Shown piece by piece: positions 8,440 through 56,194 of a stretch of DNA of 64,000 bases. The position numbers and the translations under genes were made by a program. Position 1 is the first letter of the stretch, and each line of letters begins with the position of its first letter. The DNA lies in the NCBI RefSeq assembly GCF_009662475.1, contig NZ_CP045571.1, positions 742,501-806,500 of the forward strand, given 5' to 3'. The stretch comes from Acidithiobacillus thiooxidans ATCC 19377. Lineage in GTDB: Bacteria > Pseudomonadota > Gammaproteobacteria > Acidithiobacillales > Acidithiobacillaceae. The notes under the pieces are model-generated. The model was not told the origin of the DNA, ran no database searches, and saw nothing but the letters and a program-made list of their open reading frames with translations.

Positions 8440-8640
8440 ATCCTCCCCGACATGAATGTCGGGGATTCCTGACTTCACAATCAGGTCTTTCTGCTTCATC
8501 GAAATCAACCCGTTCTACCTTACAGTAGGACAGGACTTACGTTTTCTCCACAGACGAGCTCCGCAAGTCCTGCGGTTAGTACATTACGAGCAGCGTTAAC
8601 ATCCCGATCATGGATGGAACCACATTCGGGACAAGTCCAC
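8440..8640 (-). ncRNA. Probable TnpB guide RNA (omega/reRNA) region
   Basis: In studied TnpB systems the guide scaffold is transcribed from the 3' part of tnpB and the right end, and the guide is read from the flanking DNA past the element border. Here that region spans the last codons of tnpB, about 80 non-coding bases and the terminal hairpin at 8447-8466. The guide would then come from the 3' end of the ZapB-like gene, read on the minus strand. The hairpin is seen; the RNA itself is inferred from the family, and its 5' limit is a guess. Confidence 0.4.
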
Positions 8641-9653
8641 TCGCGGATGTTCAATGGCATCTTTGAAACGATATGGCCGCAGTCCGAACAGCGTTTGCTG
8701 CTGGGGTACCAACGGTCGATTTGGACCAAAGTCCTGCCGTACCACTGCGCCTTGTACGCTAACATCCGTACAAATTCGCCCCATCCTGCATCGCTAATGG
8801 ATCGGGCCAGGCAGTGGTTTTTCTGCATATTGGATACCGCAAGACTTTCCATGGCGATGACTTGGTTCTCGTCAATCAACCGGCTGGAGAGTTTGTGTAA
8901 AAAGTCCTTGCGGGTATCCGCAATTTTTGCGTGTAAACGTGCAATTTTCCACTTCGCTTTGGCTCGATTACAAGAGCCTTTTTGTTTCCTGCTCAAACGA
9001 CGTTGCAGCCTTACCAATTTCGTCTCGTTTTGGCGCAAAACGTTGGGGGATGCGATCTTTTCACCGTTAGATAGAATCGCAAAATGCGTTAGGCCAAGAT
9101 CAATTCCTATCTGGTTGTTTACAGGAACCTTCACGCTCACAGCATCATCACACAAAAAGTTGACGAAGTATCGTCCGGCCGTATCTTTACTGACGGTTAC
9201 CGTCGTTACTTTGGCGGCCTTTGGAAGGGTCCGGGAAAAGATGATATTCAATGTCTCTTTCATCTTGGCGAGTTTTAAAGTCTTCCCGTTCCATTGAAAG
9301 GCGCTGTCCGTATACGTAGCCGATTGGTTACCATCTTTGCATTTGAAAGTTGGATAACTGGAGCGCTTTGCAAAGAAGTTCCCAAACGCGGTTTGCAGAT
9401 GCCGAAGCGATTGTTGCAATGGGACGCTGGAGACCTCATTCAACCATGTATAATCCGGCATCTTCTTCATGATAGTCAGTGCAGCGGAGGTTTCGTGGTA
9501 GCTTATGTGCTCGTGCCGCTTCATCCACGCGTCAGAACGTAAACGTAGCATGTGATTGTAGATGAACCGCGCACAACCGAAGGTCTGAGCCAAAACCGTT
9601 ATCTGCTCAGAAGTCGGATAGAATCGGAATCTGTAAGCGCGCTTAATATCCAT
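8520..9653 (-). CDS. tnpB: TnpB, RNA-guided RuvC-type nuclease of IS605 superfamily
   Basis: The 377-residue protein is a full-length TnpB, ancestral to Cas12. An N-terminal helix-turn-helix/wedge part begins KRAYRFRFYPT. The RuvC active site is complete: D185 (IGIDLGLTH), E269 (AMESL) and D351 (HDRDVNAARN). The zinc ribbon has C322-x2-C325 and C341-x2-C344. I chose the ATG at 9653 because TnpB proteins begin just before this basic YRFYPT motif; an upstream ATG at 9671 adds six residues. All catalytic residues are present, so the nuclease may be active, cutting DNA next to a short target motif as directed by its guide RNA. Confidence 0.93.
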   Translation of the reverse strand: MDIKRAYRFRFYPTSEQITVLAQTFGCARFIYNHMLRLRSDAWMKRHEHISYHETSAALTIMKKMPDYTWLNEVSSVPLQQSLRHLQTAFGNFFAKRSSYPTFKCKDGNQSATYTDSAFQWNGKTLKLAKMKETLNIIFSRTLPKAAKVTTVTVSKDTAGRYFVNFLCDDAVSVKVPVNNQIGIDLGLTHFAILSNGEKIASPNVLRQNETKLVRLQRRLSRKQKGSCNRAKAKWKIARLHAKIADTRKDFLHKLSSRLIDENQVIAMESLAVSNMQKNHCLARSISDAGWGEFVRMLAYKAQWYGRTLVQIDRWYPSSKRCSDCGHIVSKMPLNIREWTCPECGSIHDRDVNAARNVLTAGLAELVCGENVSPVLL

Positions 9654-10932: not shown

Positions 10933-11580
10933 TCAAGATTCGTTGAGCGCAGCCATTACGAACAGTGTTAAACCAATGGCCATAAAAAGCCCTCCGGTTC
11001 CCCTCTGTAAAATCTGATGTGCCCGGGGGCTTCGCAACAACGCACTGATTCTGGTTCCCAATTGTGCATAAACCATATACCAGCTCATTTCAATGAGCCA
11101 GAAGGTAAATATCAACTCTGCAAACTGTATCCAGGGGTTAGCCTGAGGACGCATGAATTGTGGCAGCAACGCGACGGTAAAAAGCAGCGCTTTGGGATTG
11201 GTGATGGTGACGAGAATACCGGTGCGATACAAAGCTGCAGGGCGCTGTATCGGGGTTCGGTTTACTGCCAAATCCTGGATATTTTCTGGACGCCGTCCGC
11301 CTGACTGCCATGCCCGGATTCCCAGATAAATCAAATAAGCAGCACCTAAAATGCGGACCAGATCAAAAATACGGGGCCAGGTTTGAAAGAAAATACCGAG
11401 TCCGGCTGCGGATAAAGTAATCATCAACAGAAGGGCCGTCATGCATCCCAGCATGGTTGCCATGGATCGACGCCAACCATACAGGGCACCATGACTCATC
11501 ACCAGCATCATGTTGGGACCTGGAATTGCAGAAATTACCAGCACGGTAAGCGCGTAAAATATCCAGATATGCAGTGTCAT
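10933..11580 (-). CDS. LysE/RhtB-family amino acid exporter
   Basis: The 215-residue protein is a six-helix inner-membrane transporter of the LysE/RhtB family, which exports amino acids such as threonine or homoserine lactone. The N-terminal PGPNMMLVMSHGALYGWRRS stretch is the family signature, followed by hydrophobic helices at about 40-65, 70-88, 115-138, 145-170 and 185-205. The ATG at 11580 overlaps the stop of the M61 peptidase gene by four bases (ATGA), which indicates translational coupling. The substrate cannot be told from sequence. Confidence 0.88.
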   Translation of the reverse strand: MTLHIWIFYALTVLVISAIPGPNMMLVMSHGALYGWRRSMATMLGCMTALLLMITLSAAGLGIFFQTWPRIFDLVRILGAAYLIYLGIRAWQSGGRRPENIQDLAVNRTPIQRPAALYRTGILVTITNPKALLFTVALLPQFMRPQANPWIQFAELIFTFWLIEMSWYMVYAQLGTRISALLRSPRAHQILQRGTGGLFMAIGLTLFVMAALNES

Positions 11581-40619: not shown

Positions 40620-40727
40620 TGCGGAATTGTTGCGGGATCGTTACATTGCCGCGATGCAACGGGTCAGCACTGGCGCCCGGACCAAAATAGAACAAGGAGT
40701 TTGGATGTCACCAGTCAGGACCGCCGC

Positions 40728-41768
40728 ATGACTGCGGCGCTAGATCAGGCTTTAGCCTGGCAGCAACATAGCCTGCAACTTGTTTCCCGCACTTTTGCGC
40801 TGACCATCCCGCAATTGCCTGAGTCTTTGCGCGTCGCGGTGGGAAATGGTTATTTGCTGTGCCGCATTGCCGATACCATTGAAGATGATCCGACCATGCC
40901 CTGGGAAGAAAAAGCCCACTGGCAGCAGGTATTTTTGCAGGTAGTCGAGGGACACGAAGATCCGGCAGTATTTGCCGGAGGTTTTGGCGCTCAACTGTCT
41001 GCGGATATGCCTGCTGCCGAACATGACCTGGTGCGTCATACGGCCGATGTCGTGCAGATTACCCACAGTTTCAGTGCCAGCCAGCAAGCGGCTCTGGCGC
41101 GCTGTGTGCGCATCATGGGGGCGGGCATGGCCGAGTTTCAGCAGCACGCCTCCCTGAAAGGGCTGGTGGACATGCCCGCTATGGATCATTACTGCTATGT
41201 GGTGGCGGGCGTGGTCGGCGAAATGCTGACCAGCCTTTTTGTGGAGTACGAACCGCGTTTGCGTGCTCAGGAAACAGAAATGCAAGGTCTGGCGGTGTCT
41301 TTTGGTCAGGGCCTGCAAATGACCAATATTCTCAAGGATATCTGGGATGACTGGGCACGCGGGGTCAGTTGGATGCCGTCCAGCGTGTTTGCTCAGTATG
41401 GTTGTGATATTGCCGCCGTCCAGCCCGGCAGTCACGACCCGGGCTTTCAGGCCGCCTTGCAAAACCTGCTGGATATTGCCGCCGAACATCTGGAAAACGC
41501 GCTGCAATATACCCTGATGATTCCTGCGGATCAGACCGGCATGCGTGATTTTTGCCTCTGGGCCCTGGCGATGGCCGTGCTGACTTTACGGCGTATTGCC
41601 GAGAATCCGGCTTTTGCATCGGGTGCTGAGGTGAAAATCAGTCGTAATAGTGTGCAGTGGGTAGTCATGTTATCCAAGCTCATGCATCGTTCGGATGGGT
41701 TGTTGCTGGCCAGTTTCCGGGCTGGCATTAAACCCCTGCGCAAAACGGCACGGGTAGCGACCGCATGA
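40728..41768 (+). CDS. Squalene synthase, single-enzyme (Erg9/SQS) type
   Basis: The 346-residue protein should join two farnesyl diphosphates and reduce the product to squalene. It has both aspartate-rich motifs, DTIEDDP at about 50-56 and DIWDDWARG at about 206-214, plus SRTFALTIPQLPESLR and YCYVVAGVVGEMLTSLF, which resemble eukaryotic-type squalene synthases more than the shorter HpnC and HpnD. No hpnC/hpnD/hpnE set is in the window. I chose the ATG at 40728 with AGGA 7 bases before it; a TTG at 40701 adds nine residues but is too close to its ribosome site. Its stop overlaps the shc start by four bases. Confidence 0.85.
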   Translation: MTAALDQALAWQQHSLQLVSRTFALTIPQLPESLRVAVGNGYLLCRIADTIEDDPTMPWEEKAHWQQVFLQVVEGHEDPAVFAGGFGAQLSADMPAAEHDLVRHTADVVQITHSFSASQQAALARCVRIMGAGMAEFQQHASLKGLVDMPAMDHYCYVVAGVVGEMLTSLFVEYEPRLRAQETEMQGLAVSFGQGLQMTNILKDIWDDWARGVSWMPSSVFAQYGCDIAAVQPGSHDPGFQAALQNLLDIAAEHLENALQYTLMIPADQTGMRDFCLWALAMAVLTLRRIAENPAFASGAEVKISRNSVQWVVMLSKLMHRSDGLLLASFRAGIKPLRKTARVATA

Positions 41769-43732
41769 ACCGTGTCCTGCAGCCGTTACCGCTGGTGGGC
41801 GGATATTTGCGTCGCACGCTGGAGCAGACCCTCGACGGGGCGCTGGAGCACGCCCAGTCGGTACTCCTGGAGAAACAGGCCCCTGATGGGCACTGGTGTT
41901 TTGAATTTGAGGCGGACTGCACCATTCCGGCCGAATTTATTCTGATGCAACATTATATGGATGAGCGTGATGCGGCGCTGGAGTCCAAAATGGTGGTGTA
42001 TTTGCGCAGCAAGCAGGCGGATCACGGCGGTTGGCCGCTGTATTATGGGGGGCATTTTGATTTGAGTGCTTCCGTGAAGGCCTATTACGCGCTGAAGCTG
42101 GCGGGAGATGCGCCGGATCTGCCCCACATGCGTCGCGCCAGAGAAGCCATCCTCGCCCATGGCGGTGCCGAACATGCCAATGTGTTCACCCGAATCACTT
42201 TGGCCCTGTTTGCCCAGGTGCCTTGGCGTGCCGTGCCTTCCATCCCGGTGGAAGTGATACTTTTGCCGCGCTGGTTTCCTTTTCAGATTTACAAGGTGGC
42301 GTCCTGGTCACGGACCGTCATGGTGCCTCTTTTTATTTTATGCAGCCTCAAGGCCCAGGCCAAAAATCCCTTGCAGGTGCATATTCGCGAATTATTTCGT
42401 CACCCTCCGGAACAAATTCAGGACTACTTTGCGGCATCGCGACAGGGCTTGGTGGCGCGCAGTTTTCTGGCTCTGGATCGTTTTTGGGGATTTATTGAAA
42501 ACTGGATTCCTGCAGCCATTCGCCGCATTGCGGTACGTCGCGCCGAACAGTGGTTTACGGCCCGGATTAATGGCGAAGATGGTCTGAATGGCATTTTTCC
42601 GGCCATGGTCAATGCCCATGAAGCCCTGGCTTTGTTGGGCTATGCGCCGGAGCATCCCTACCGTCAGGCCACGGGTGCGGCGCTGCGCAAGCTGGTGGTG
42701 GAGCGCGCTGAGGATGCCTACTGTCAGCCCTGTATGTCACCGGTCTGGGACACCTGTCTGGCCCTTCATGCGTTGCTGGAAGCTGACGCTGTTGAGGAAT
42801 CCGGTGGATCAGACAGAATTACCGGCGAACAGGAAAAAGCCATTGCCTGGCTCAAGGAGCGGCAGATTTGCAGTGATCCTGGAGACTGGCAGGTGCAGCG
42901 CCCGCAGCTGGCGGGCGGTGGCTGGGCTTTTCAGTATGCGAATCCCTACTATCCCGATCTGGATGATACGGCGGCAGTGGCCTGGGCCCTGGCGCGTGCC
43001 GGGCGTCCTGAAGATCGGGAAAGTATCGAAAAAGCGGCAAACTGGCTGACGGGAATGCAATCCCGCAATGGTGGGTTTGGTGCCTATGATGTGGATAATA
43101 CCCACTATTATCTCAATGAAATCCCGTTTGCTGATCATAAGGCCTTGCTGGATCCGCCGACAGCGGATGTGACGGGCAGGGTGGTGGCCTTTCTTGGCTA
43201 CCTGGGCAGGCCCCGTGATCGCGATGTGCTGCGCCGGGCCGTCGCTTATTTGTTGCGTGAGCAGGAGTCTTCCGGGGCCTGGTTTGGACGTTGGGGGACC
43301 AACTATATTTATGGAACCTGGTCGGTACTGATGGCTCTGGGAGAGTTGCAGGATCCTTCCTTGCAACCGGCCATGGACCGGGCCGCTGACTGGTTGCGGG
43401 CCATGCAGCAGGAAGATGGTGGTTGGGGGGAAAATAACGATTCCTACGCAGAGCCCGGCCTGGCGGGAGCTGGTCAGGTTTCTACGGCGGCCCAGACTGC
43501 CTGGGCCTGCCTGGGTTTGATGGCGGCGGGAGATCGCGGCTCCATCGCCCTGCGCCGGGGTATTCAGTGGTTACAGACCCATCAGAATGGTGAAGGTGAT
43601 TGGCAGGATCCTTTTTTTAATGCGCCTGGCTTCCCCAAAGTATTTTACCTTATTTATCATGGCTATAATTTTTATTTCCCGCTTTGGGCGCTGGCCCGTT
43701 TCCGGAATTTGGGATGCAGCCGCAGCGGATAG
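41765..43732 (+). CDS. shc: Squalene-hopene cyclase
   Basis: Shc (HpnF) cyclises squalene to hopene and diplopterol at the inner membrane. The 655-residue protein has the catalytic DxDD motif in YYPDLDDTAAV at about 400, and QW repeats that brace the double alpha-barrel, including QSRNGGFGAYD, QESSGAWFGRWG, QQEDGGWGENN and QNGEGDWQDP. The C-terminal YLIYHGYNFYFPLWALARF is typical. Length is normal. It is coupled to squalene synthase by an ATGA overlap and overlaps hpnG by 19 bases. Confidence 0.97.
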   Translation: MNRVLQPLPLVGGYLRRTLEQTLDGALEHAQSVLLEKQAPDGHWCFEFEADCTIPAEFILMQHYMDERDAALESKMVVYLRSKQADHGGWPLYYGGHFDLSASVKAYYALKLAGDAPDLPHMRRAREAILAHGGAEHANVFTRITLALFAQVPWRAVPSIPVEVILLPRWFPFQIYKVASWSRTVMVPLFILCSLKAQAKNPLQVHIRELFRHPPEQIQDYFAASRQGLVARSFLALDRFWGFIENWIPAAIRRIAVRRAEQWFTARINGEDGLNGIFPAMVNAHEALALLGYAPEHPYRQATGAALRKLVVERAEDAYCQPCMSPVWDTCLALHALLEADAVEESGGSDRITGEQEKAIAWLKERQICSDPGDWQVQRPQLAGGGWAFQYANPYYPDLDDTAAVAWALARAGRPEDRESIEKAANWLTGMQSRNGGFGAYDVDNTHYYLNEIPFADHKALLDPPTADVTGRVVAFLGYLGRPRDRDVLRRAVAYLLREQESSGAWFGRWGTNYIYGTWSVLMALGELQDPSLQPAMDRAADWLRAMQQEDGGWGENNDSYAEPGLAGAGQVSTAAQTAWACLGLMAAGDRGSIALRRGIQWLQTHQNGEGDWQDPFFNAPGFPKVFYLIYHGYNFYFPLWALARFRNLGCSRSG

Positions 43733-44436
43733 GTATCGTTGTGGCGCTGGCTGCCGAGGCGCGCATCCTTTTGTCCGGGAAGTTGCGCTACCAGACAGTG
43801 ATGGAAATTGCGCCGCAGCTTTGCATGGTGGTTTCGGGAATGGGTCCAATACGGGCTGATCAGGCGGCTGAACAGTTGTTGCAAGCCGGAGTAGGCAGAC
43901 TCTTGTCCTGGGGCACTGCCGGCGGCTTGAATCCTGCCTGTCGGGCCGGGGATTTGCTGGTTCCCGAGCACATATTCTGGGCAGGACGTAGTTGGTCTGC
44001 CGACGCGGGCTGGCGGAGTGCGCTGTTGCAAAAATTTTCCGAAAAAGTGCTGGCTGGGGAGCTTTGTTCGGTCAGTGAAGCCTGTGCTTCGGTGGCGGCC
44101 AAGGCCCAACTCCGGGCAGATTATCCGGAAGCCCAAGCGGTGGATATGGAAAGCGGAGTCGTGGCGCAACGGGCAGCACAAGCCGGGATTCCTTTTCTGG
44201 CGATTCGCAGCGTGGTGGACCCTGCCCATCAGTCCATTCCCGCTATAGCCATGCACAGTGTTGATGGTTATGGTCGTCCCCAAATTTTGCCCCTGTTGCG
44301 GGGATTGTTACTTCATCCGGGCGATTTGCCGCCACTCATGGGTTTGGGCCGGCAGATGCAGGCCGCCGTAAACACCCTGCGTCTGGTTCAGCCGCACCTG
44401 GTTCAGCCGCATTTGCGGGAAGCCAACAGCGTATGA
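43714..44436 (+). CDS. hpnG: Adenosylhopane nucleosidase HpnG
   Basis: HpnG removes adenine from adenosylhopane to leave ribosylhopane. The 240-residue protein is of the nucleoside phosphorylase superfamily (IGIVVALAAEARILL at the N-terminus, VVSGMGPIRADQAAEQLL, LLSWGTAGGLNPACRAGDL and AVDMESGVVAQRA). The VDMES motif holds the ribose-binding residues. I chose the ATG at 43714, inside the end of shc, because it gives the family N-terminus; the frame from 43684 adds ten residues. Its stop overlaps the hpnA start by four bases. Confidence 0.9.
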   Translation: MQPQRIGIVVALAAEARILLSGKLRYQTVMEIAPQLCMVVSGMGPIRADQAAEQLLQAGVGRLLSWGTAGGLNPACRAGDLLVPEHIFWAGRSWSADAGWRSALLQKFSEKVLAGELCSVSEACASVAAKAQLRADYPEAQAVDMESGVVAQRAAQAGIPFLAIRSVVDPAHQSIPAIAMHSVDGYGRPQILPLLRGLLLHPGDLPPLMGLGRQMQAAVNTLRLVQPHLVQPHLREANSV

Positions 44437-45422
44437 AAGCCTTATTGACGGGTGCCTCGGGTTTTGTCGGCGGAGCGGTGCTACGCCGCCTGCTCGCTGA
44501 AGGACTGGAAGTACGAGTGTTACATCGCAGCGGTGCGGATTCCAGCAATTGGGAAGGTCTGGATGTGGAGCCGGTGCTGGGAGACCTGGCTGATGCTCAG
44601 GCTTTGGATAAAGTCGTAGCGGGTTGCCAGCTGGTTTTTCATGTGGCGGCGGATTATCGTCTCTGGGTGCCTGATCCACAGTCTATGTACGCGGCCAACG
44701 TCAGCGCCTCGGAGCGTTTGGCCCGGGCGGCTTTGGACGCCGGGGTGGAGCGCATGGTTTATACCAGCAGCGTTGCCGTGCTGGGTCATTATGCCGATGG
44801 CCGGGTGGCGGATGAGGCGGCTCCTTCCCGTCTTGCCGATATGATCGGGCATTATAAACGCTCCAAATTTATGGCTGAGGAAGCTCTGCAACAGCTTTGT
44901 CAGAATGAGTCTGCACCCATTGTGATTGTGAACCCCTCCACACCTGTCGGGCCTGCAGACCGCAAGCCGACGCCGACCGGGCGGCTGGTGCGGGATGCTG
45001 CTGCCGGGAAAATGCCCGCCTATGTGGATACCGGACTGAATGTGGTGCATGTGGATGATGTCGCCATGGGCCACTGGCAGGCCTATTTGCACGGAGAGCC
45101 GGGACAACGCTACATTCTTGGCGGTGATAATTTGTCCTTGCAGGCTATTTTGACCCGCATTGCCGGACTTACCGGAAAGCGTTCACCCCTATTCCGTATT
45201 CCTCGCAAAATGTTATTCCCCCTGGCTTGGGCCGCAGAAAATGTGGTCCGTGCGCGTGGCCGGGGTACTCCTTTGGTGACCATGGATGAGTTGCGGATGG
45301 CCGCTCACAAAATGTATTTTTCCTCACAGAAAGCTGAAGAAATGCTGCATTATGTCCATCGTCCCGCCGAAGAGGCCCTGCGCGATGCGGTAAGGTGGTT
45401 TGCGGAAAATCATTATCTTTAG
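44433..45422 (+). CDS. hpnA: Hopanoid-associated sugar epimerase HpnA
   Basis: HpnA is an extended SDR protein found in hopanoid clusters, probably acting on the sugar-derived side chain; its reaction is not established. The 329-residue protein has the Rossmann motif GASGFVGGAVLRRL at 7-20, a YTSSVAVLG stretch, and the catalytic YKRSKFMAE at about 145. NPSTPVGPADRKPTPTGRLV is a conserved block of this subgroup. It overlaps hpnG and is followed by hpnI after 38 bases. Confidence 0.93.
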   Translation: MKALLTGASGFVGGAVLRRLLAEGLEVRVLHRSGADSSNWEGLDVEPVLGDLADAQALDKVVAGCQLVFHVAADYRLWVPDPQSMYAANVSASERLARAALDAGVERMVYTSSVAVLGHYADGRVADEAAPSRLADMIGHYKRSKFMAEEALQQLCQNESAPIVIVNPSTPVGPADRKPTPTGRLVRDAAAGKMPAYVDTGLNVVHVDDVAMGHWQAYLHGEPGQRYILGGDNLSLQAILTRIAGLTGKRSPLFRIPRKMLFPLAWAAENVVRARGRGTPLVTMDELRMAAHKMYFSSQKAEEMLHYVHRPAEEALRDAVRWFAENHYL

Positions 45423-46636: not shown

Positions 46637-48066
46637 TGACGATGAAAACCCTTTTCCTGCAGGCTCCTTCCTTTGAAGGTTTTGACGGCGGTGCTGGTTC
46701 CCGTTATCAGGCCAAGCGGGAAATTCGTTCTTTCTGGTTTCCCACCTGGCTGGCCCAGCCCGCTGCGATGATCCCCGGCAGTCGTCTGCTGGATGCACCC
46801 CCCGCCGATGTGAGCGTGGAAGAAACCCTGGAAGTGGCTGCCGGATACGAGTTGTGCATCATCCATACCAGCACCCCTTCTTTTGCATCGGATGTGCGCA
46901 TGGCAGAGTTGCTCAAAGAGCACTATCCGAAAATGATGATTGGTCTGGTCGGAGCCAAAGTGGCGGTAGAACCCGACGAGTCTTTGCGGGAGGCAGGTCT
47001 TGCCGTCGATTTTGTGGCTCGGGAAGAATTTGATTTCACCCTCAAGGAAATTGCCGAAGGCCGGCCCCTGAGTGAAGTGGATGGCATCAATTATCGTGCG
47101 GAAGATGGCCAGCTGATTCACAACCCCGACCGGGCCATGATTGAAGATATGGACTCCCTGCCTTTTGTTTCTGAGGTCTACAAGCGGGATCTGCACATTG
47201 AGGATTATTTTATTGGCTACCTCAAGCATCCCTACATTTCCTTTTACACGGGACGGGGATGCCGGTCTCAGTGTACATTCTGCCTCTGGCCGCAGACAGT
47301 CGGCGGACATCGTTATCGGACCCGCAGTGCAGCCAATGTGATTGAGGAAGTGCGTTACATCCAGAAAAATTTCCCGCAGGTGAAAGAAATTTTCTTTGAT
47401 GACGATACGTTTACCGATGATCGCCCGCGTGCTGAGGAAATCGCCCGGGGTCTGGGCAAGCTGGGGGTGACCTGGTCCTGCAATGCCAAAGCCAATGTGC
47501 CTTACGAGACCCTCAAGGTCCTGCGTGAAAACGGCCTGCGTCTGTTGCTGGTGGGTTATGAGTCGGGCGATCAGCAGATTCTCAATAATATCAAGAAAGG
47601 CATCAAAGTGGAGTCGGCCCGTAAGTTTACTGCGGACTGTCATAAGCTGGGTATTGTCATTCATGGTACTTTCATTCTTGGTCTGCCTGGCGAAACCAAG
47701 GAAACCATCCAGAAAACCATTGAATTTGCCAAGGAAATCAATCCTCACACTATCCAGGTTTCACTGGCGGCACCTTATCCCGGCACGTTTTTGTACAATC
47801 AGGCCAAGGAACAGGGTTGGTTGACCGAGGAAGACGAGGCCCACATGGTCAATGATCGCGGTGTGCAGATCAGCCCCATGAGTTATCCGCACCTGAATCA
47901 CACGGAAATTTTTGACTCGGTGGAAACCATGTACAAGCGTTTCTATTTCCGCGCCGGGAAAATTGCTGAAATTACTGGTGAGATGCTGAAAAGCACCCAG
48001 ATGATGAAGCGTCGTTTGCGGGAAGGCGTTGAGTTCGTGCGCTTCCTGCGGCAACGCCACGGCTGA
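46636..48066 (+). CDS. hpnJ: Hopanoid radical SAM enzyme HpnJ
   Basis: HpnJ is a B12-binding-domain radical SAM enzyme that converts the glucosamine headgroup to the cyclitol ether. The 476-residue protein has an N-terminal cobalamin-type domain (about 1-150), the radical SAM cluster motif GCRSQCTFCLWP at about 205-216, and a C-terminal domain. I chose the ATG at 46636 because GGAG lies 7 bases before it and the family begins KTLFLQAPSF; the longer frame from 46531 overlaps hpnI and is rejected. A second ATG at 46642 is possible. Confidence 0.94.
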   Translation: MTMKTLFLQAPSFEGFDGGAGSRYQAKREIRSFWFPTWLAQPAAMIPGSRLLDAPPADVSVEETLEVAAGYELCIIHTSTPSFASDVRMAELLKEHYPKMMIGLVGAKVAVEPDESLREAGLAVDFVAREEFDFTLKEIAEGRPLSEVDGINYRAEDGQLIHNPDRAMIEDMDSLPFVSEVYKRDLHIEDYFIGYLKHPYISFYTGRGCRSQCTFCLWPQTVGGHRYRTRSAANVIEEVRYIQKNFPQVKEIFFDDDTFTDDRPRAEEIARGLGKLGVTWSCNAKANVPYETLKVLRENGLRLLLVGYESGDQQILNNIKKGIKVESARKFTADCHKLGIVIHGTFILGLPGETKETIQKTIEFAKEINPHTIQVSLAAPYPGTFLYNQAKEQGWLTEEDEAHMVNDRGVQISPMSYPHLNHTEIFDSVETMYKRFYFRAGKIAEITGEMLKSTQMMKRRLREGVEFVRFLRQRHG

Positions 48067-48067
48067 A

Positions 48068-48943
48068 GTGGGGCAGGGGCATACCCGGCGGCTGGTCGTT
48101 AACGCCGACGATTTCGGACTGGATCTCGCGGTTAATGAGGCGGTGGAATCAGCATATCAGAAGGGTGTGCTGACCACCGCCAGTCTTATGGTGGGGGCCC
48201 CTGCGGCGGCTGATGCCATACGCCGGGCGAAAAGCCTGCCTGGACTGGGTGTCGGTTTGCACCTGACTCTGGTGGATGGAGCGCCGCTGTTGCCAGCGGA
48301 ACAGGTGCCGGATCTGGTGGACGTTCAGGGCCGTTTTGCAGCGGATTTATGGTTGCGCGGCGTGCGTTATTTTTTTCTGCCCAAGGTGCGCAGGCAGTTG
48401 GCGGCAGAAATTCGCGCGCAGTTTGCCGCCTTTGCAGATGCCGGTCTGGTGCTCGATCATGCCAACGCCCACAAACATCTGCATTTGCATCCTACGGTGT
48501 TAAGTCTGATGCTGGATATTGGGGAGGCATTTGGATTGCGGGCAGTACGTCTCCCCCGGGAGTCACTGGCGGTGGCGCGATGTGGTGGTGCGCGGGGCTT
48601 CGCACCTGCCTTCTGGGCTTTTTTTTTGCGCCCCTGGTTGGCAAGAATGCGCCGACAACTAGATAAGCGTGGACTGCTTTATAATGATTTGCTTTGCGGT
48701 CTGGATGCCACCGGACATATGACCGAATCGCGCCTGCTGGGTCTGCTGAACTGTCTGCCAGAAAAGTCTCTGGTGGAAATTTATTTTCATCCGGCCACCA
48801 CCCAGAGTCCTTTACTGCGAAAGCTCATGCCTGATTATGAGCCCCAGGCAGAATATGCCGCCCTGTTGAGTCCCAGGGTTGGGGAGTATTTGCGTGATCA
48901 TCAAATTGTGAGAGGTAGATTCAGTGATTTCACCAGCGGCTGA
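48068..48943 (+). CDS. hpnK: Hopanoid deacetylase HpnK (YdjC/ChbG family)
   Basis: HpnK removes the acetyl group from the GlcNAc headgroup that HpnI adds. The 291-residue protein is of the YdjC family of carbohydrate deacetylases, with LVVNADDFGLDLAVN at the N-terminus holding the metal-binding aspartates and HANAHKHLHLHP at about 135-146 supplying histidine ligands. I chose GTG at 48068, one base after the hpnJ stop; a TTG at 48029 would overlap hpnJ and adds Cys-rich residues foreign to the family. It overlaps hpnN by 20 bases. Confidence 0.92.
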   Translation: MGQGHTRRLVVNADDFGLDLAVNEAVESAYQKGVLTTASLMVGAPAAADAIRRAKSLPGLGVGLHLTLVDGAPLLPAEQVPDLVDVQGRFAADLWLRGVRYFFLPKVRRQLAAEIRAQFAAFADAGLVLDHANAHKHLHLHPTVLSLMLDIGEAFGLRAVRLPRESLAVARCGGARGFAPAFWAFFLRPWLARMRRQLDKRGLLYNDLLCGLDATGHMTESRLLGLLNCLPEKSLVEIYFHPATTQSPLLRKLMPDYEPQAEYAALLSPRVGEYLRDHQIVRGRFSDFTSG

Positions 48944-51629
48944 ACGATTCCTGGAAAGTATCGGCAAATCCATTGCGCATTTTTTGGTGCAGGTGGTCGA
49001 TTTTTCAGTGCGACGGGCTGTTTGGGTGATGGGGTTGGTGTTGATTGGTACCTTGCTGGCCCTGTTTTATGCGTTTACACATTTTGCAGTAGATACCAAT
49101 ACCAGCCATGCCCTGTCTCGCGATCTGCCCTTTCAGAAGCGTGAGCTGGCTTATCACAATGTTTTTTCCCAGGACCAAAACACCATTGTAGTCGTACTGC
49201 AGGGAAAAAATCCTCAGAGTAGCGACGCAGCAGTTACCCGTCTGGAGACCTGGCTGCGCGCTCGCCCGAAGATGTTTCACAGTGTTTACGTGCCGGGTGG
49301 TGGCAGTTTTTTTGAGCGGAATGGTCTGCTCTATTTGTCTCCGGAAAAAGTAAAGGATTTTGCCGATCGCATTACCAATGCCCAGCCCCTGATTGCCCGT
49401 TTGTCCGCCGATCCCAGTCTTGGTGGTTTAAGTGATTTGTTGAGTATGGCCATCAGCCAAAGACTGAGTAATGGTGTGCAGTTGCCGGGCATGACGGCCA
49501 TATTCTCGGCGTTGAATGAGGCCGTGAAAGCCCGCCTGGAGGGTAAGCCGTACCAGATTTCCTGGAGTGAAATGATGGGCGGAGACCTGGCCAAGCTGGG
49601 CCCTGCCCAGCGCTTCGTCATCATTCAGCCAGCCATGAATTATCATTCCTTACAGCCTGCCGAGGCTGCCATCCGGACCTTGCAGGCAGGTTTGCAGAGT
49701 TTGCAGTTAAATGCCGCCCACGGCGTCAGCGTCGGTGTGACCGGAGGGGCTGTGCTGGATGCGGAGCAACTCCAGACCGTCAGTCATGGTGCTGGTGAAT
49801 CCCTGGCGCTGACTCTGGGGCTGGAAATCATTTTACTCAGCATTGCCCTACGTTCGGTGAAATTGGTGAGTGGTGTGCTGATTGGACTGGTATCGGGCAT
49901 TATTCTGACGACGGCCTGGGCCTTGTTTTTCGTCGGCCCCTTTAATCTCATCTCTGTGGCTTTTGCTATTTTGTTCATTGGTCTGGGTGTGGATTTCGGC
50001 ATTCAATTCTGTCTGCGCTATCGCGAGGAATTGTTCAACGGTGCGGTGCATCGGGTAGCCATGCATCGGGTGACCCAGGGTATGGGAACAGCGCTAGGTT
50101 TGGCTGCAGTGGCGGCGGCACTGAGTTTTTACGCCTTTGTGCCTACCAGCTATGCCGGAATTGTGGATCTTGGGCTGATTTCCGGGACCAGCATGCTTAT
50201 TGCGCTGCTGTTGACCCTGACTTTTTTGCCTGCTTATTTGACCTTGTGGCCCATTGCCTTAAACGGGCAACATCGGGTCATTAATTATCCGCATTTTACG
50301 ATGGTGCCTACTCTGGCAAAACATCCAATCCATCGCTATGCCTACTGGGTATTGGGTTTGGTGGCCATACTCGCCGTTGCCGCCATTCCCCTGGCGATGC
50401 GGGCAAGTTTTGACTTTAATCCACTCCACATGATTGATAGTCACGCCGAAGGGGTAAAAGTCTTTGAAAAGCTGTTGGCTAACCCTGATACCGCTCCCTA
50501 CCGGATGGAAGTACTCACGCCTAATATTGCCGATGCACAGACCGTGGCCCGGCGTGTCGAGCAGTTACCAACAGTGGCACGGGCATTGACTGTGGACAGT
50601 TATATTCCCAAGGACCAGTCCAAAAAATTGGCCATTTTGCAGAATCTGCAGATTCTGGTGCCCCCTTTTTCACTCATGATGCCGACAGCCTTGACCCCAC
50701 CGGCTGCAGATACGCGTAAGAAGCTGGATAAACTGGTCAAGGATCTGCGTGCTCTGGCTGTCAAGGATGGTCAGACGTCTGCAGATGGTAAAATAACCGG
50801 GCAGTTGGCTGATCATCTTCAGACATTTTTACAGAAGCAGGGAAAACAGCCCGCCGCCATGAATGCTTTACAGAATAGTGTGATGGGTACTCTGCCCGGG
50901 GAGCTGAAACAGCTGGGCATGGCTTTGTCCGCCGGACCGGTCAATTTGCAAACCCTGCCGGCAGCGCTCAAGGATCGCTATGTAGGTGCGGCGGGTCAGG
51001 CGCGTGTAGAGATTTTCCCCAAGGCCAATCTGAGTAGTAACCAGGCCATGTATCAATTTGTTCAGAGCGTGCTCAAGGTCGAGCCCAGGGCGGTTGGAAC
51101 CCCGGTCATGCTGGTGCAGGGTGGAGAGGCTGTTCTTGGTGCCTTTCAGGAAGCTACCTACATTGCGCTGGCCAGTATCAGTCTGTTGTTGCTTTTAGCC
51201 TTGCGCCGTTATCGGGATGTGCTGCTGATCATGATTCCGTTGCTGCTGGCGGCACTGTTTACGGTCGCGGCCATGAGTCTGCTGGGCTTGAGTTTCAATT
51301 TGGGTAATATTATTGTCCTACCCCTTTTGATTGGTCTGGGTGTGGCATTTGCCATCTATATTGTGGTGCGCTGGCGCAATGGTGTGGATGTTGCCCATTT
51401 GTTGGGAACTTCAACCCCGATGGCCGTGTTTTTCAGCGGTCTGACCACCTTGAGTGCTTTTGGCAGTATGGCCGTATCCCGTGATCCGGGCATGGCGAGT
51501 CTTGGCGAGGCGCTGAGTCTGGCATTGGCCATTGTACTTTTGTGTATATTGATTATTTTGCCGACCCTGATGCTGCTGTTTACGTCTTCTCCCCGCGAAG
51601 AGGGAATCGCACAGGATGAAGGCAGCTAA
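48924..51629 (+). CDS. hpnN: Hopanoid transporter HpnN (RND/MMPL family)
   Basis: HpnN moves hopanoids from the inner to the outer membrane. The 901-residue protein has the RND layout: a first helix at about 35-55, a large periplasmic loop, a block of helices at about 290-460 including VAFAILFIGLGVDFGIQFCLRY, a second periplasmic loop, and a last block from about 750. The GxxxD pattern in the fourth helix carries the proton-relay aspartate. The start is GTG at 48924 inside hpnK. It is followed 3 bases later by hpnL. Confidence 0.94.
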   Translation: MISPAAERFLESIGKSIAHFLVQVVDFSVRRAVWVMGLVLIGTLLALFYAFTHFAVDTNTSHALSRDLPFQKRELAYHNVFSQDQNTIVVVLQGKNPQSSDAAVTRLETWLRARPKMFHSVYVPGGGSFFERNGLLYLSPEKVKDFADRITNAQPLIARLSADPSLGGLSDLLSMAISQRLSNGVQLPGMTAIFSALNEAVKARLEGKPYQISWSEMMGGDLAKLGPAQRFVIIQPAMNYHSLQPAEAAIRTLQAGLQSLQLNAAHGVSVGVTGGAVLDAEQLQTVSHGAGESLALTLGLEIILLSIALRSVKLVSGVLIGLVSGIILTTAWALFFVGPFNLISVAFAILFIGLGVDFGIQFCLRYREELFNGAVHRVAMHRVTQGMGTALGLAAVAAALSFYAFVPTSYAGIVDLGLISGTSMLIALLLTLTFLPAYLTLWPIALNGQHRVINYPHFTMVPTLAKHPIHRYAYWVLGLVAILAVAAIPLAMRASFDFNPLHMIDSHAEGVKVFEKLLANPDTAPYRMEVLTPNIADAQTVARRVEQLPTVARALTVDSYIPKDQSKKLAILQNLQILVPPFSLMMPTALTPPAADTRKKLDKLVKDLRALAVKDGQTSADGKITGQLADHLQTFLQKQGKQPAAMNALQNSVMGTLPGELKQLGMALSAGPVNLQTLPAALKDRYVGAAGQARVEIFPKANLSSNQAMYQFVQSVLKVEPRAVGTPVMLVQGGEAVLGAFQEATYIALASISLLLLLALRRYRDVLLIMIPLLLAALFTVAAMSLLGLSFNLGNIIVLPLLIGLGVAFAIYIVVRWRNGVDVAHLLGTSTPMAVFFSGLTTLSAFGSMAVSRDPGMASLGEALSLALAIVLLCILIILPTLMLLFTSSPREEGIAQDEGS

Positions 51630-51632
51630 GCC

Positions 51633-52646
51633 TTGAAACAGAAAATGCTCATTCTGCTCGCTGGATTACTGGGTCTGGCCTTAGGTGTTTATCTGGTGCT
51701 GCATGCCGGTTTTGCCGGAATTGTGGCACTGCTCGCCGTGGCGGGCTGGGGGTTGCTCTGGTTGCTGCCGTTTCATTTGCTGCCGCTGGCTCTGGATACC
51801 TTGAGCTGGAAGTGGCTGTTACGTGCCAAGGCGCGCGCCCCCTTTGGTTTTTTGTTGTGGCTGGCCCTGATTCGCGAATCGGTGAACGGTTTATTGCCGG
51901 TGGCACGGATAGGTGGTGAACTGCTGGGAATCCGAATGCTCAGTCAATATGGTGTCTCGCCCTACGTGGCCGGTGCCAGTGTCATGGTCGAGATCACTTT
52001 GACTCTGGTGAGTCAGTTCTTGTTTGCTTTGCTGGGAGTTGTGGTGTTGCTGTTTGCGGTCAGCAATCACCTCCTGGTTTTCGAAGTTCTGGGTTTCCTT
52101 TTCCTGTCGATTCCGGTGATGGTCATTTTTTTCTGGCTGCAAAAACATAAAGGCTTGTTCTCGCTGGTGCAGAACATCAGTAAGCGAATGCTTGACGGTT
52201 ATGATGTTTTGGGGATTATCGGCGATCCGCGTCTTCTGGATGCGGAAATCCGGAGTTTTTACGACAAGGGGCGCGCTTTGTTAGTGGCCAATTTTTGGCA
52301 ATTAGCCGGGCTTTTTGCGGGCACTCTTGAGGTCGTTTTTACTTTTTGGCTGTTGCACCATCCGGTACCTTTCTGGGCGGCCTTGCTCCTCGAAAGTCTG
52401 GGGCAAGCTTTGCGTAGTGTGGCATTTGTGGTGCCAGCAGGTATTGGAATTCAGGAGGGCGGTTTTATGCTGTTCGGAACAGTTGTCGGTATCGGTCCAG
52501 ATCTGGCTCTGGCTTATGCTTTGGCCCGTCGTCTGCGTGAACTGTTTCTGGGTATCCCGGTCCTCTTGTCATGGGTTGCATCAGAAAGTCATTATATGCG
52601 TCGAAGGTGGTTACAGGCTTCAACCGGGAAAGAGGGGGTTTTATGA
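51633..52646 (+). CDS. hpnL: Hopanoid-associated membrane protein HpnL
   Basis: HpnL belongs to the family of lysylphosphatidylglycerol synthase/flippase membrane domains (TIGR03476 type). The 337-residue protein has about eight hydrophobic helices; [21 protein letters not shown] and the later [29 protein letters not shown] are characteristic stretches. A role in moving or modifying hopanoids is inferred from its presence in such operons. The start is TTG at 51633; an ATG at 51645 is an alternative. The stop overlaps the next gene's ATG by four bases. Confidence 0.9.
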
Positions 52647-53485
52647 CGGCAATGGCCATAGAGCTGGGTTCTGAGCAGCATCGGGATTTGTTTTGCCAGT
52701 TCATGCACGATACCCATGTGCATTTTGATCCTGCAAATATGCCTTGGCCGGAACTGGATGCTGCCACGGAACAACGGGTCAAATCCCTGCCTTTCTGGGG
52801 CGAGGCGGTAGCGACGGAGAGTGTCACCGCGCGGATGGTTCAGAGCATGGCGGCACGGGAAACCGATCCCGTAGTGCGTGCTGCTGTGGCCCTGGATGGT
52901 CAGGAAGAACAAAGGCATTCGGAATTACTGCAGGCTTTGATAAAACATTATCATATTCAGATACCTCCCTCTCCGCCGCCGCCGCCCTTGCGGGATCCCT
53001 ACTGGGAGTTTCTATTTACGGGGTATGGCGAATGTCTGGATTCCTATTTTGCTTTCGGGCTGTTTGCTGCGGCCAAAAACTCGGGATTTTTCCCGCCTGA
53101 GCTGGTCAAGATATTTGAGCCGGTCATGCAGGAAGAAGCGCGCCACATCATTTTTTTCATCAACTGGTTAAAATGGCACCGTCGGCGCCTGCCGTTCTGG
53201 AAAAAAATCGTCCTTGAGTTTCAACGTATCCAGGTCATCAGCATGCAGGCCTGGGCGCGGATTCAAACGGCAAGGGGCCTGAATGATCATCAGGAGGAAA
53301 ATTTTACCATGACCGGCCATGAACAGGTGAGTAGCGACATTAGCCTGACACAGTTGCTCGCATTATGTCGGACGGAAAACGAGAGACGCTTTGCTGCTTA
53401 TGATGCCCGTTTGCTGCGTCCGAAATTGGCACCGCGTATTGCCAATATACTGTTTTTCTTTCTGTCCCGGGGTAAAGGCGCCTGA
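52643..53485 (+). CDS. Ferritin-like di-iron protein within the hopanoid operon
   Basis: The 280-residue protein shows a full four-helix di-iron ligand set: E59, E89-x-x-H92 (GQEEQRH), E130 ([10 protein letters not shown]) and E165-x-x-H168 ([11 protein letters not shown]). This E/ExxH/E/ExxH pattern is that of ferritin-like oxidases and oxygenases. A proline run (about 108-115) separates the two helix pairs, and the C-terminus is hydrophobic ([11 protein letters not shown]), suggesting membrane contact. The ATG at 52643 overlaps the hpnL stop and has GAGGGGG before it; a longer frame from 52571 reads inside hpnL. It is not one of the named hpn genes. Oxidation of a hopanoid or intermediate is a reasonable guess, unproven. 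Confidence 0.85.
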
Positions 53486-53498
53486 TTATTTGCTGCGC

Positions 53499-53529
53499 TT
53501 GTCCTGCATACGCTTTGGTATGTTATACT
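53499..53529 (+). promoter_or_regulatory. Internal promoter before hpnH
   Basis: The 107-base gap before hpnH has an extended -10 element, TG-T-TATACT, with TATACT at 53524-53529. A TTGTCC at 53499 is a possible -35, though at 19 bases the spacing is long. This is the largest gap inside the hopanoid string and could give hpnH and the genes after it their own expression level. Confidence 0.5.
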
Positions 53530-53592
53530 TGAGCGATTAAGGTTGTTATTTGTTCACAGGCTGTTTAGCCACCAGGTGGGGGTGTTGATACT

Positions 53593-54696
53593 ATGGGTGT
53601 TCCTTTAATTCAGAGCTACAAGGTGGGTCGCTACATTGTTTCGCAAAAACTGCGGGGGCGTAAGCGTTATCCTTTGGTCCTGATGCTGGAGCCGTTGTTT
53701 CGTTGTAATCTGGCCTGTGCGGGTTGCGGGAAAATCGATTACCCCGATGATGTGCTGGATAAACGCCTGTCGGTGGAAGAGTGTATTGGCGCAGCGGAAG
53801 AATGTGGTGCGCCCATCATTTCCATTGCCGGCGGTGAGCCACTGATTCACAAGGATATGCCGGAAGTGGTGAAGGGTTTGGTGGAACGCAAGCGCTTCGT
53901 TTACCTATGCACCAATGCGCTCCTGCTGAAAAAGCGTATGGATGATTATACGCCTTCTCCTTATCTGACATTTTCTGTCCATCTGGATGGCAATGAACAC
54001 CGCCATGATGATTCTGTCTGTCAACCGGGGACCTACAAGCGGGCAGCTTTGGCTATTCAGGAGGCGGTTGAAAAAGGCTTCCGGGTGACCGTGAATTGTA
54101 CCCTCTTTCAGGGTGAAGGGGCGGAAGAAGTAGCCAATTTCCTGGATGACTGCAAGGCCCTGGGTGTTGAGGGTGTGACTATTTCTCCCGGCTTCAACTA
54201 TGAGAGAGCCCCCCAGCAGGAAGTATTCATTCAAAGGCGCGCATCCCGACAGTTGTTCAGGGATATTTTCCGTATTGGTAAGGAACGCAAGGCGAAATGG
54301 ACGTTTAATCAGTCCAGTCTGTTTCTGGACTTTCTGGCGGGTAACCAGAATTATCAATGTACGCCTTGGGGTAATCCTACCCGCAATATTTTTGGCTGGC
54401 AGAAGCCCTGCTACCTGTTAGTGAGTGAAGGCTACGCCCAGACTTACAAGGAAATGATGGAAACGACTCCTTGGGATCAGTACGGCGTCGGGGTTAACCG
54501 CAAGTGCGATCAGTGTCAGGTCCATTCCGGTTTTGAGCCGACAGCGGTCAATGACACGTTTGCGCACCCCCTGCGGGCGCTTAAAGTAGCCTTGCGTGGG
54601 CCGCGTACGGAAGGCCCTATGGCTCCGGATATGCCAACCATTCCCCCTTCACAGGGATCCGACCATCCGGTTTTTCCATTACGGGTTGAACGTTAG
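53593..54696 (+). CDS. hpnH: Adenosylhopane synthase HpnH (radical SAM)
   Basis: HpnH couples hopene to a 5'-deoxyadenosyl radical to make adenosylhopane, the first side-chain step. The 367-residue protein has the radical SAM motif FRCNLACAGCGKID at about 35-48, the GGEPLIHKDM motif that follows, and a C-terminal cysteine region (NRKCDQCQVHSGFEP). The N-terminus GVPLIQSYKVGRYIVSQKLRG is characteristic of HpnH. Length is normal. It follows its own likely promoter and precedes hpnM by 41 bases. Confidence 0.96.
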   Translation: MGVPLIQSYKVGRYIVSQKLRGRKRYPLVLMLEPLFRCNLACAGCGKIDYPDDVLDKRLSVEECIGAAEECGAPIISIAGGEPLIHKDMPEVVKGLVERKRFVYLCTNALLLKKRMDDYTPSPYLTFSVHLDGNEHRHDDSVCQPGTYKRAALAIQEAVEKGFRVTVNCTLFQGEGAEEVANFLDDCKALGVEGVTISPGFNYERAPQQEVFIQRRASRQLFRDIFRIGKERKAKWTFNQSSLFLDFLAGNQNYQCTPWGNPTRNIFGWQKPCYLLVSEGYAQTYKEMMETTPWDQYGVGVNRKCDQCQVHSGFEPTAVNDTFAHPLRALKVALRGPRTEGPMAPDMPTIPPSQGSDHPVFPLRVER

Positions 54697-54737
54697 TAAG
54701 CGATTGGCCGTCCAAAAAGGGCTAACAGGGAGATTTT

Positions 54738-55391
54738 ATGCTTATGAGAAATGCCATGTTGCTTGCTGTCGCAGCGGCTTTGTCCATGTTGCCAATGATT
54801 TCAGCCGGAGCAGCTGTCGCAGCACCTGCTCCGGCTGCCGCGCAAGCCAAGGTCCTGACACCAAAAGCCACTATTGACACCCTCGATGCAGCCTTATTGA
54901 AAGCCATGCAGGGTGGCAGCAAAATGGGTTATCAGGGCCGATATGCCGTGGTGTCTCCTGTAGTCCGGAAAGTCTATGATTTTGACCGGATTGCCAGTCT
55001 GACTCTGGGCAGCCACTGGTCCAAACTGACCACTGCGCAACAGAAAGAATTTGTAAGCGTGTTGGCGGACTATACTGCAGCCACATATGCGGCTCGTTTT
55101 GATAATTATAAAGGCGAACATTTTGCGGTCGTCAACAGCGAAACCATGCAGCCCGGAACTGAGGGCGTATTCAGCACCTTGACCATGCGCAATGGCAAGG
55201 TCCATCGTTTTGATTACCTGCTCCAGCAACAGGATGGACAGTGGCGTATTGTGAATGTGGTTGCCGACGGGGTCAGTGATTTATCCCTGAAACGTTCTGA
55301 ATATGATGAAACCATTAAAACCAAGGGGTTCCCGGCCTTGATTGCGCATTTGAAAGCGCAAACTGCTCATTATGCGAGTGGTAAAAATTGA
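54738..55391 (+). CDS. hpnM: HpnM, MlaC-like periplasmic lipid-binding protein
   Basis: The 217-residue protein has a signal peptide (about 1-36, ending near APAAAQA) and an MlaC/Ttg2D domain (VVRKVYDFDRIASLTLGSHWSKL, then LTMRNGKVHRFDYLLQQQDGQWRIVNVVADGVS). HpnM proteins are MlaC relatives in hopanoid clusters and are thought to carry lipid across the periplasm. A GGGAGA ribosome site precedes the ATG. The stop shares one base with the start of the MlaA gene. Confidence 0.92.
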   Translation: MLMRNAMLLAVAAALSMLPMISAGAAVAAPAPAAAQAKVLTPKATIDTLDAALLKAMQGGSKMGYQGRYAVVSPVVRKVYDFDRIASLTLGSHWSKLTTAQQKEFVSVLADYTAATYAARFDNYKGEHFAVVNSETMQPGTEGVFSTLTMRNGKVHRFDYLLQQQDGQWRIVNVVADGVSDLSLKRSEYDETIKTKGFPALIAHLKAQTAHYASGKN

Positions 55392-56194
55392 TGCTTCGCT
55401 GGCGTTGGTTGCTTGGTGGCATCTTCGCCAGTTCCGTGCTGGCGCTATCAGGCTGCGCTACAGTGAATGGTCCCGGCTCCGGCACATCGGGATCCGGTCG
55501 ACCGCCTTTGCAAACCTTCAACCATACTATGTTCCATGTGAATATGGGACTTTACGATTATGTGCTTGAGCCGGTATCTACGGGTTACAAAGCGGTGACA
55601 CCGGGTTTTGTCCGCGAGGGCGTCAGTAACGTGTTTTCCAACGTGGGCATGCCTTACATTTTTATCAACGATTTTTTGCAAGGTCGGGTACAACAGGGTA
55701 TGGAAGATTTGAGCCGTTTTCTGGTCAACTCCCTATTCGGTGTGGGTGGTTTGGTTGATGTGGCTGACAAACTGGATTTACCCATGCACGACAATAGTCT
55801 GGGGGTGACGCTTGGAGTCTGGGGCGTACCACAGGGACCCTATCTGGTATTACCCTTTTATGGACCCAGTTCGTTGCGGAGTTTGCCGGGTCTCGCCATG
55901 GTCATGTTTACCGGCCCCGCATATTATCTCACCAGTACCCCTGCCCAATATGCCTTGAGTGGCATGGGGGTGATTAATACGGGCTATGTGGATGGTCCGA
56001 AAATCCGCATGGTTCAGGAAGCGGTGGACCCTTATCAGTTTATGCGCAATGCCTGGGAACAGCATGAACAGTATTTGATCAGTGGCGGGGTAGTCAGTAA
56101 AAGCCAGTTGCTTGAAGGTCTGTCTTTACCTCCGCCTACTGGAACGACCCCAGCCGGCAATGAATCCAGCGTCAACACGAAAGGAAAGCATTAA
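55391..56194 (+). CDS. mlaA: MlaA/VacJ-family outer-membrane lipoprotein
   Basis: The 267-residue lipoprotein has a lipobox LALSGC with the modified cysteine at about 22, and the VacJ domain (NTMFHVNMGLYDYVLEPV-like start, SRFLVNSLFGVGGLVDVADKL, GVWGVPQGPYLVLPFYGPSS). In the Mla system MlaA takes phospholipid from the outer leaflet and hands it to MlaC. Here it is paired with HpnM, so the two may form a hopanoid or phospholipid shuttle. The ATG at 55391 overlaps the hpnM stop. gatC begins one base after its stop codon. Confidence 0.92.
   Translation: MLRWRWLLGGIFASSVLALSGCATVNGPGSGTSGSGRPPLQTFNHTMFHVNMGLYDYVLEPVSTGYKAVTPGFVREGVSNVFSNVGMPYIFINDFLQGRVQQGMEDLSRFLVNSLFGVGGLVDVADKLDLPMHDNSLGVTLGVWGVPQGPYLVLPFYGPSSLRSLPGLAMVMFTGPAYYLTSTPAQYALSGMGVINTGYVDGPKIRMVQEAVDPYQFMRNAWEQHEQYLISGGVVSKSQLLEGLSLPPPTGTTPAGNESSVNTKGKH

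Follow-up and report, generated by a model that had tools for sequence, protein, structure and literature searches.

Gene X, which encodes a 280-residue protein within the hopanoid operon of Acidithiobacillus thiooxidans ATCC 19377, is probably an O2-dependent di-iron oxidase that modifies bacteriohopanepolyols (BHPs). The choice of its reaction is a guess between two, Delta6/Delta11 ring desaturation and side-chain hydroxylation, and the distribution of the gene fits desaturation slightly better. An O2-activating di-iron oxidase of the desaturase form, acting on the BHP ring system, is accordingly our tentative first choice, held at somewhat less than even confidence. The genes around X are listed below; coordinates are those of the window, that is, the whole stretch of 64,000 nucleotides that was analysed.

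40701..41768, + strand, squalene-synthase-like ORF, name assigned by eye and by its place in the published cluster
41765..43732, + strand, squalene-hopene cyclase (shc), TIGR01507, 786 bits (cut-off 431)
43684..44436, + strand, hpnG, TIGR03468; start as listed, although the actual one may be internal
44433..45422, + strand, hpnA, TIGR03466
45461..46636, + strand, hpnI, TIGR03472
46642..48066, + strand, hpnJ, TIGR03471; start placed at the start of the family model
48029..48943, + strand, hpnK, TIGR03473
48924..51629, + strand, hpnN, TIGR03480
51633..52646, + strand, hpnL, TIGR03476, 340 bits (cut-off 196)
52643..52646, + strand, ATGA overlap of the X start and the hpnL stop, read from the sequence
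52643..53485, + strand, X, 280-aa di-iron protein of the hopanoid operon, ATG start, from the ORF list and translation
53593..54696, + strand, hpnH, TIGR03470, 531 bits (cut-off 225)
54738..55391, + strand, hpnM, TIGR03481, 241 bits (cut-off 160)

The order shown, from the squalene-synthase-like ORF to hpnM, is continued by an MlaA/VacJ-like ORF named by eye. Ten neighbours of X passed their NCBIfam cut-offs (squalene-hopene cyclase, HpnG, HpnA, HpnI, HpnJ, HpnK, HpnN, HpnL, HpnH and HpnM). The first-pass annotation had described X as translationally coupled to hpnL and followed by hpnH, and this was confirmed by the ATGA overlap and by a gap of 107 bp between the X stop and the hpnH start at 53593. 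A promoter scan of 51500-54800 gave two sites against 2.6 expected, with none between X and hpnH. X is present in one copy in this genome, and its closest relatives among the matches listed (96-98% identity) were in Acidithiobacillus sulfurivorans, Acidithiobacillus sp. HP-2 and A. ferrivorans. The end of the operon (54738-56194) consists of hpnM, which is MlaC-like, and the MlaA/VacJ-like ORF, possibly a hopanoid lipid-transfer pair adjoining the transporter gene hpnN.

X is not new as a map position. The legend to Figure 6C of a 2022 paper draws the Acidithiobacillaceae cluster as sqs-hpnFGAIJKNL-ferritin-hpnHM (PMC8886135), and X occupies the place of this 'ferritin', which is given no role in hopanoid synthesis in the parts of that paper cited here. 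The earlier claim that the named hopanoid genes include no protein of this kind thus holds for the names, but the gene itself had already been drawn. No function for it was found in print among the part of the matches covered in the open-licence literature. What is new is the extent and shc-dependence of the family, a paralogue (X2) and its fusion to X, candidacy for two orphan reactions, and the exclusion of cyclitol-ether formation and oxygen shielding as general roles of X.

The four ligand segments of X were located as follows.

52817..52819, + strand, codon of E59, in model helix 52-72
52907..52918, + strand, codons of E89-Q-R-H92 (start 52907; H92 at 52916), within EExRH, in helix 76-103
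53030..53044, + strand, codons of E130 to S134, ECxDS, in helix 119-147
53135..53146, + strand, codons of E165-A-R-H168 (start 53135; H168 at 53144), within a second EExRH, in helix 152-181

The ligand set proposed for the ORF in the first-pass annotation (E59, E89xxH92, E130 and E165xxH168) proved to be near-invariant. Among 157 distinct homologues (167 before identical sequences were merged), E59, E89, E130, E165 and H168 were present in all and H92 in 156, with Gln in L063, a degree of conservation far beyond chance. R91, R167 and C131 were likewise invariant in 157/157. Structure prediction, which had been suggested as a check, placed the ligands on four separate long helices (52-72, 76-103, 119-147 and 152-181) in an AlphaFold2 model built from 36 sequences (mean pLDDT 91.0, pTM 0.89). 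The nearest solved folds to this model were ribonucleotide reductase R2 and the R2-like ligand-binding oxidase (R2lox), with Z up to 14.9 over 209-230 residues, on a scale where unrelated helical bundles can reach approximately 13-14. A Foldseek search with the model returned no match at E <0.001 (best E 0.005); a match at E 0.035 was to 1afr, which we take to be a soluble acyl-ACP desaturase. The sequence of X, compared with those of solved structures, reached E 0.059 at best as a single sequence and 0.12 as a profile.

No family cut-off was reached by X in Pfam or NCBIfam. Its best Pfam match, AurF (PF11583; p-aminobenzoate N-oxygenase), scored 21.5 bits, below the gathering score of 29.6, and was matched at E <=1 by 17 of the 33 members of alignment A2. 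R2lox and ribonucleotide reductase R2 resemble X in having four ligand helices with two Glu/His pairs and two further Glu, but they show no significant sequence match to it, and the neighbours of X are hopanoid genes rather than nrd genes. The (D/E)ExRH motif is common to soluble acyl-ACP desaturases. These enzymes share it with X together with the ligand pattern, so that an O2-dependent desaturation by X is conceivable, but X has a genomic setting of hopanoid synthesis, and their family was absent from the Pfam matches of X up to E 10, a range in which the HMMER filters drop most matches above approximately 0.1. In a methanotroph (L007), an ORF named by eye as methane-monooxygenase-like carries DEIRH and DELRH where X has EEQRH and EEARH, and a Thr at the offset where X has Ser, four residues past the Glu of the third helix (E130). 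The bacterial multicomponent monooxygenases to which this hydroxylase ORF would belong differ from X in that X has no conserved beta, gamma, effector or reductase gene nearby; ORF clustering with a simple caller revealed no gene family recurring within 4.5 kb of X as a monooxygenase subunit, reductase or redox partner. This lack of a conserved redox partner gene counts against X as a BHP oxidase. The near-invariant ligands, the invariant R91 and R167, the separate ligand helices and the R2-like structural neighbours argue for the oxidase type of enzyme. In the model, the build of X is that of an O2-activating oxidase rather than a storage ferritin, with metal binding and O2 use as its presumed properties.

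If this is correct, two irons would be held between the four helices by E59, E89/H92, E130 and E165/H168, and, supplied with O2 and with electrons by a general reductase, would form an oxidant. This oxidant would take unactivated hydrogens from a substrate that is presumably a BHP made by the surrounding operon. In our first choice the reaction would be Delta6 desaturation of the ring system, and Delta11 desaturation would be due to the paralogue or be a side reaction. BHP unsaturation needs just such a di-iron oxidant.

A scan of named genomes returned at least 570 relatives of X, of which the best 80 were kept, so that the set leans towards close relatives. Within this set, 74 of the 80 loci had one or more hpn genes within approximately 10 kb of X (the HpnL matches include distant ones at 26-33% identity). 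At least one of hpnI, hpnJ and hpnK was near X in 69/80, and all three in 64/80; in many clusters X lies between hpnK/hpnL and hpnJ. The hosts include Acidithiobacillus, Azotobacter, Azomonas, Dyella, Rhodanobacter, Nevskia, Sphingomonas, Cupriavidus, Paraburkholderia, Acidiphilium and many metagenome bins. Six loci of the best 80 had no hpn genes in this range (L025, L032, L034, L071, L089 and L091), some of them on short contigs. No hpn gene was recognised within the 8 to 15 kb flanks of five Burkholderiaceae loci (L002, L008, L009, L010 and L012) or near X in 18 of 20 Acetobacteraceae regions, and these separate locations count against the proposed role.

The paralogue X2 immediately follows X in 12 of the 80 best loci. 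In three more cases X and X2 are fused in a single frame of 574-580 residues (L038 9953-11674, L060 9941-11668 and L090 9923-11662), which suggests that they work together. In a tree X2 formed its own clade with support 1.0, and its ligands are kept. An X2-type homologue away from hpn genes was observed in a methanotroph (L007 9313-10188, genome G136) and also in L183-L187. In L007 a gene set resembling, by eye, soluble methane monooxygenase lies approximately 3.5 kb downstream of this homologue, which is directly preceded by a further ferritin-like ORF (8550-9311; by eye, with ExxH motifs).

Squalene-hopene cyclase was sought in the genomes of 50 of the 80 best loci and was found in 47, in 45 over the cut-off and in two in pieces; the exceptions (G217, G218 and G232) were all MAGs. 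In a sample of 240 Alphaproteobacteria, X was present in 16 genomes, shc in 66 and both in 15 (Fisher p 1.4e-8), the exception being G361. The count for X had been reduced from 18 by dropping two weak profile matches (G276, E 9.8e-4; G403, E 5.7e-4), and that for shc from 67 by dropping G419 (280 bits, under the cut-off) and keeping G279, in which shc is in two pieces. Of 185 Gammaproteobacteria, 26 had shc over the cut-off and three had X, all three with shc; X was sought there with one sequence and no profile, so that distant copies may have been missed. In 149 Sphingomonadaceae genomes, shc was present in 15 and X in two, both with shc. The wide spread without shc that would have spoken against a restriction to hopanoid producers was therefore not seen. 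X is nearly confined to hopanoid producers, and within them it is an accessory gene. This co-occurrence and the 74/80 hpn-linked loci argue for a link to hopanoid synthesis. One group stands apart: six deep, divergent, solitary homologues from Alphaproteobacteria without HpnJ over the cut-off (L099, L100 and L103-L106; genomes G310, G241, G361, G271, G399 and G349) may have another substrate. A mobile or viral origin of X was rejected, as IMG/VR yielded eight pattern matches but no relative.

The accessory distribution of X bears on several of its possible functions. In the alphaproteobacterial sample X was absent from 51 of 66 shc genomes and from 11 of 19 HpnJ genomes, while HpnJ over the cut-off was absent from 8 of 16 X genomes. 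As HpnJ genomes without X and X genomes without HpnJ over the cut-off both exist, formation of the cyclitol ether does not require X, and the idea that it does was rejected. The first-pass annotation had also proposed protection of radical SAM enzymes from oxygen. A general shield for HpnH and HpnJ is unlikely in view of the many shc and HpnJ genomes without X, and was rejected. A wider reading makes X a protein of the ferritin or rubrerythrin kind, protecting these enzymes through iron storage or the removal of O2 or peroxide. It could draw on the name 'ferritin' in PMC8886135 and on weak Pfam matches to Rubrerythrin (17.4 bits; gathering score 22.8) and Ferritin_2 (15.5; 24.7). X is, however, approximately twice the length of a ferritin, its modelled topology is R2-like, and a conserved Arg lies in both EExRH motifs. 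Together with the absence of X from so many shc and HpnJ genomes, this makes the reading quite improbable.

The undescribed hopanoid modification that had been suggested for X is supported to the extent that X is a conserved di-iron protein belonging to the hopanoid pathway (shc in 47/50, 15/16, 3/3 and 2/2 X genomes). It has to be narrowed in that the likely products, Delta6/Delta11 BHPs and bacteriohopanepentols, are already described (PMC12583986). This survey, published in 2025 and covering 54 Alphaproteobacteria, states in the sections cited that no gene is known for BHP unsaturation or for the pentols and hexols, and that the surroundings of the hpn clusters yielded no candidates for the pentols.

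Desaturation was preferred on the grounds of distribution: X and unsaturated BHPs are similarly rare and similarly scattered. Unsaturation is recorded in one of eight BHP-producing Sphingomonadales, S. formosensis CC-Nfb-2 (PMC12583986), and X in 2 of the 15 shc-bearing Sphingomonadaceae, a comparison at the level of groups. In S. formosensis CC-Nfb-2, X lies between hpnK and hpnL (L042). X was found in 43 of 80 Acetobacteraceae, and Table 3 of the survey lists 49-82% unsaturated BHPs, with 6-50% pentol and hexol, in seven acetic-acid species (PMC12583986); this favours desaturation, the comparison again being between groups and not species one-to-one. Burkholderia cenocepacia, which carries X (L002), provides a further point in favour, as a Delta6 BHT cyclitol ether is annotated there, along with a BHpentol cyclitol ether (PMC8560942). 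Against desaturation, S. formosensis, the only species named both among the X loci and in Table 3 of the survey, has 1% unsaturated BHPs and 23% pentol plus hexol (PMC12583986). The survey also has its own candidate for BHP unsaturation, a gene of the sterol-desaturase family with an imperfect match to the trait, which would carry out the same reaction as that proposed for X and is described as lying outside the hpn cluster; it counts against X as the desaturase. The Pfam matches of X include no such family. Afipia broomeae has 43% unsaturated BHPs in the same survey. The BHPs that PMC8886135 cites, at second hand, for A. thiooxidans include by name neither unsaturated BHPs nor pentols, which is a point against desaturation and hydroxylation alike.

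Hydroxylation in the side chain of the BHP, adjacent to the tetrol, which would yield bacteriohopanepentol (with X2, the hexol) and their cyclitol ethers, was the first idea, and we now consider it rather unlikely. It would fit the position of X beside hpnI-hpnJ-hpnK in 64/80 loci, since BHpentol is often seen as the cyclitol ether (PMC12583986, section 3.5.3), and the 2025 study found no candidate gene for it in the sections cited. X-bearing pentol makers include B. cenocepacia, Acetobacteraceae and S. formosensis (23%) (PMC8560942, PMC12583986). Pentols are also reported for Azotobacter vinelandii (PMC8560942), and X was found in A. beijerinckii and in two of four genomes of that genus. The two paralogues, in tandem in 12/80 and fused in 3/80 loci, could match two hydroxylations, and the Ser at E130+4 is similar to the Thr found in a hydroxylase, the methane-monooxygenase-like ORF. 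Aminopentol, however, is made by most type I methanotrophs, and an X2-type homologue was present in only 6 of 81 methanotroph-order genomes (all five sampled of genus g138 and one of g200). Pentols are listed for six of eight BHP-producing Sphingomonadales (PMC12583986, Table 3) as against X in 2 of 15 shc-bearing Sphingomonadaceae (Fisher p 0.006, a group-level comparison). Rhodopila strain LVNP, grown anoxically, makes a BHpentol cyclitol ether (PMC8590665), which is ill suited to an O2-dependent step, with the proviso that the cells taken for LC-MS may have been grown differently. The sphingomonad and methanotroph samples and the Rhodopila report led us to demote side-chain hydroxylation below desaturation.

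A third form of oxidation, of a BHP or an intermediate to a side-chain ketone or aldehyde, or in the processing of a glucosamine or cyclitol head group, would give an undescribed product and appears improbable. The frequent position of X between hpnK/hpnL and hpnJ would be compatible with it, as would the 32-oxo intermediate that the 2025 study proposes for pentols (PMC12583986). Aminotriol occurs in S. formosensis, one of only three species outside the Hyphomicrobiales in which the survey lists it (PMC12583986), and is cited at second hand for A. thiooxidans (PMC8886135). The mismatch between X and HpnJ in Alphaproteobacteria (HpnJ absent from 8/16 X genomes, X from 11/19 HpnJ genomes) indicates, on the other hand, that X has no fixed link with the cyclitol head, and there is no direct evidence of a new product.

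Decades have passed since unsaturated BHPs and bacteriohopanepentols became known. X is conserved, is located inside or next to hpn clusters, is almost restricted to genomes with shc, and is built like an oxidase that activates O2. Whether X and X2 are the missing BHP-tailoring oxygenases, that is, the desaturases or hydroxylases making Delta6/Delta11 double bonds, extra side-chain hydroxyls or both, seems to us evenly balanced. If they are, they would be the genetic source of compounds that serve as geological and taxonomic biomarkers. Were X to depend on O2, its products would serve as oxygen markers in the rock record, and the capacity to make them could be read from genomes.

Several solitary or altered loci had features of their own. 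In Burkholderia multivorans (L008 13533-14384) and B. stagnalis (L012 13507-14403), a solitary X is preceded by an ORF that, by eye, resembles NAD(P)H:FMN reductase. Its product is a possible electron donor of X; it was not seen as a conserved neighbour elsewhere. On plasmid p3 of Caballeronia zhejiangensis (L011 14906-15762), an unannotated X homologue, flanked by an hpnL-like gene and hpnJ, was matched in two frames and looks disrupted, and a 26-residue hpnJ-like remnant is present at 11137-11214. Long ORFs of short VEVDSDVIELLADDRPV-like repeats occur near X in Burkholderia (L002 13162-16380, L008 19936-22803 and L012 19829-22021) and may represent a repetitive gene read on the wrong strand.
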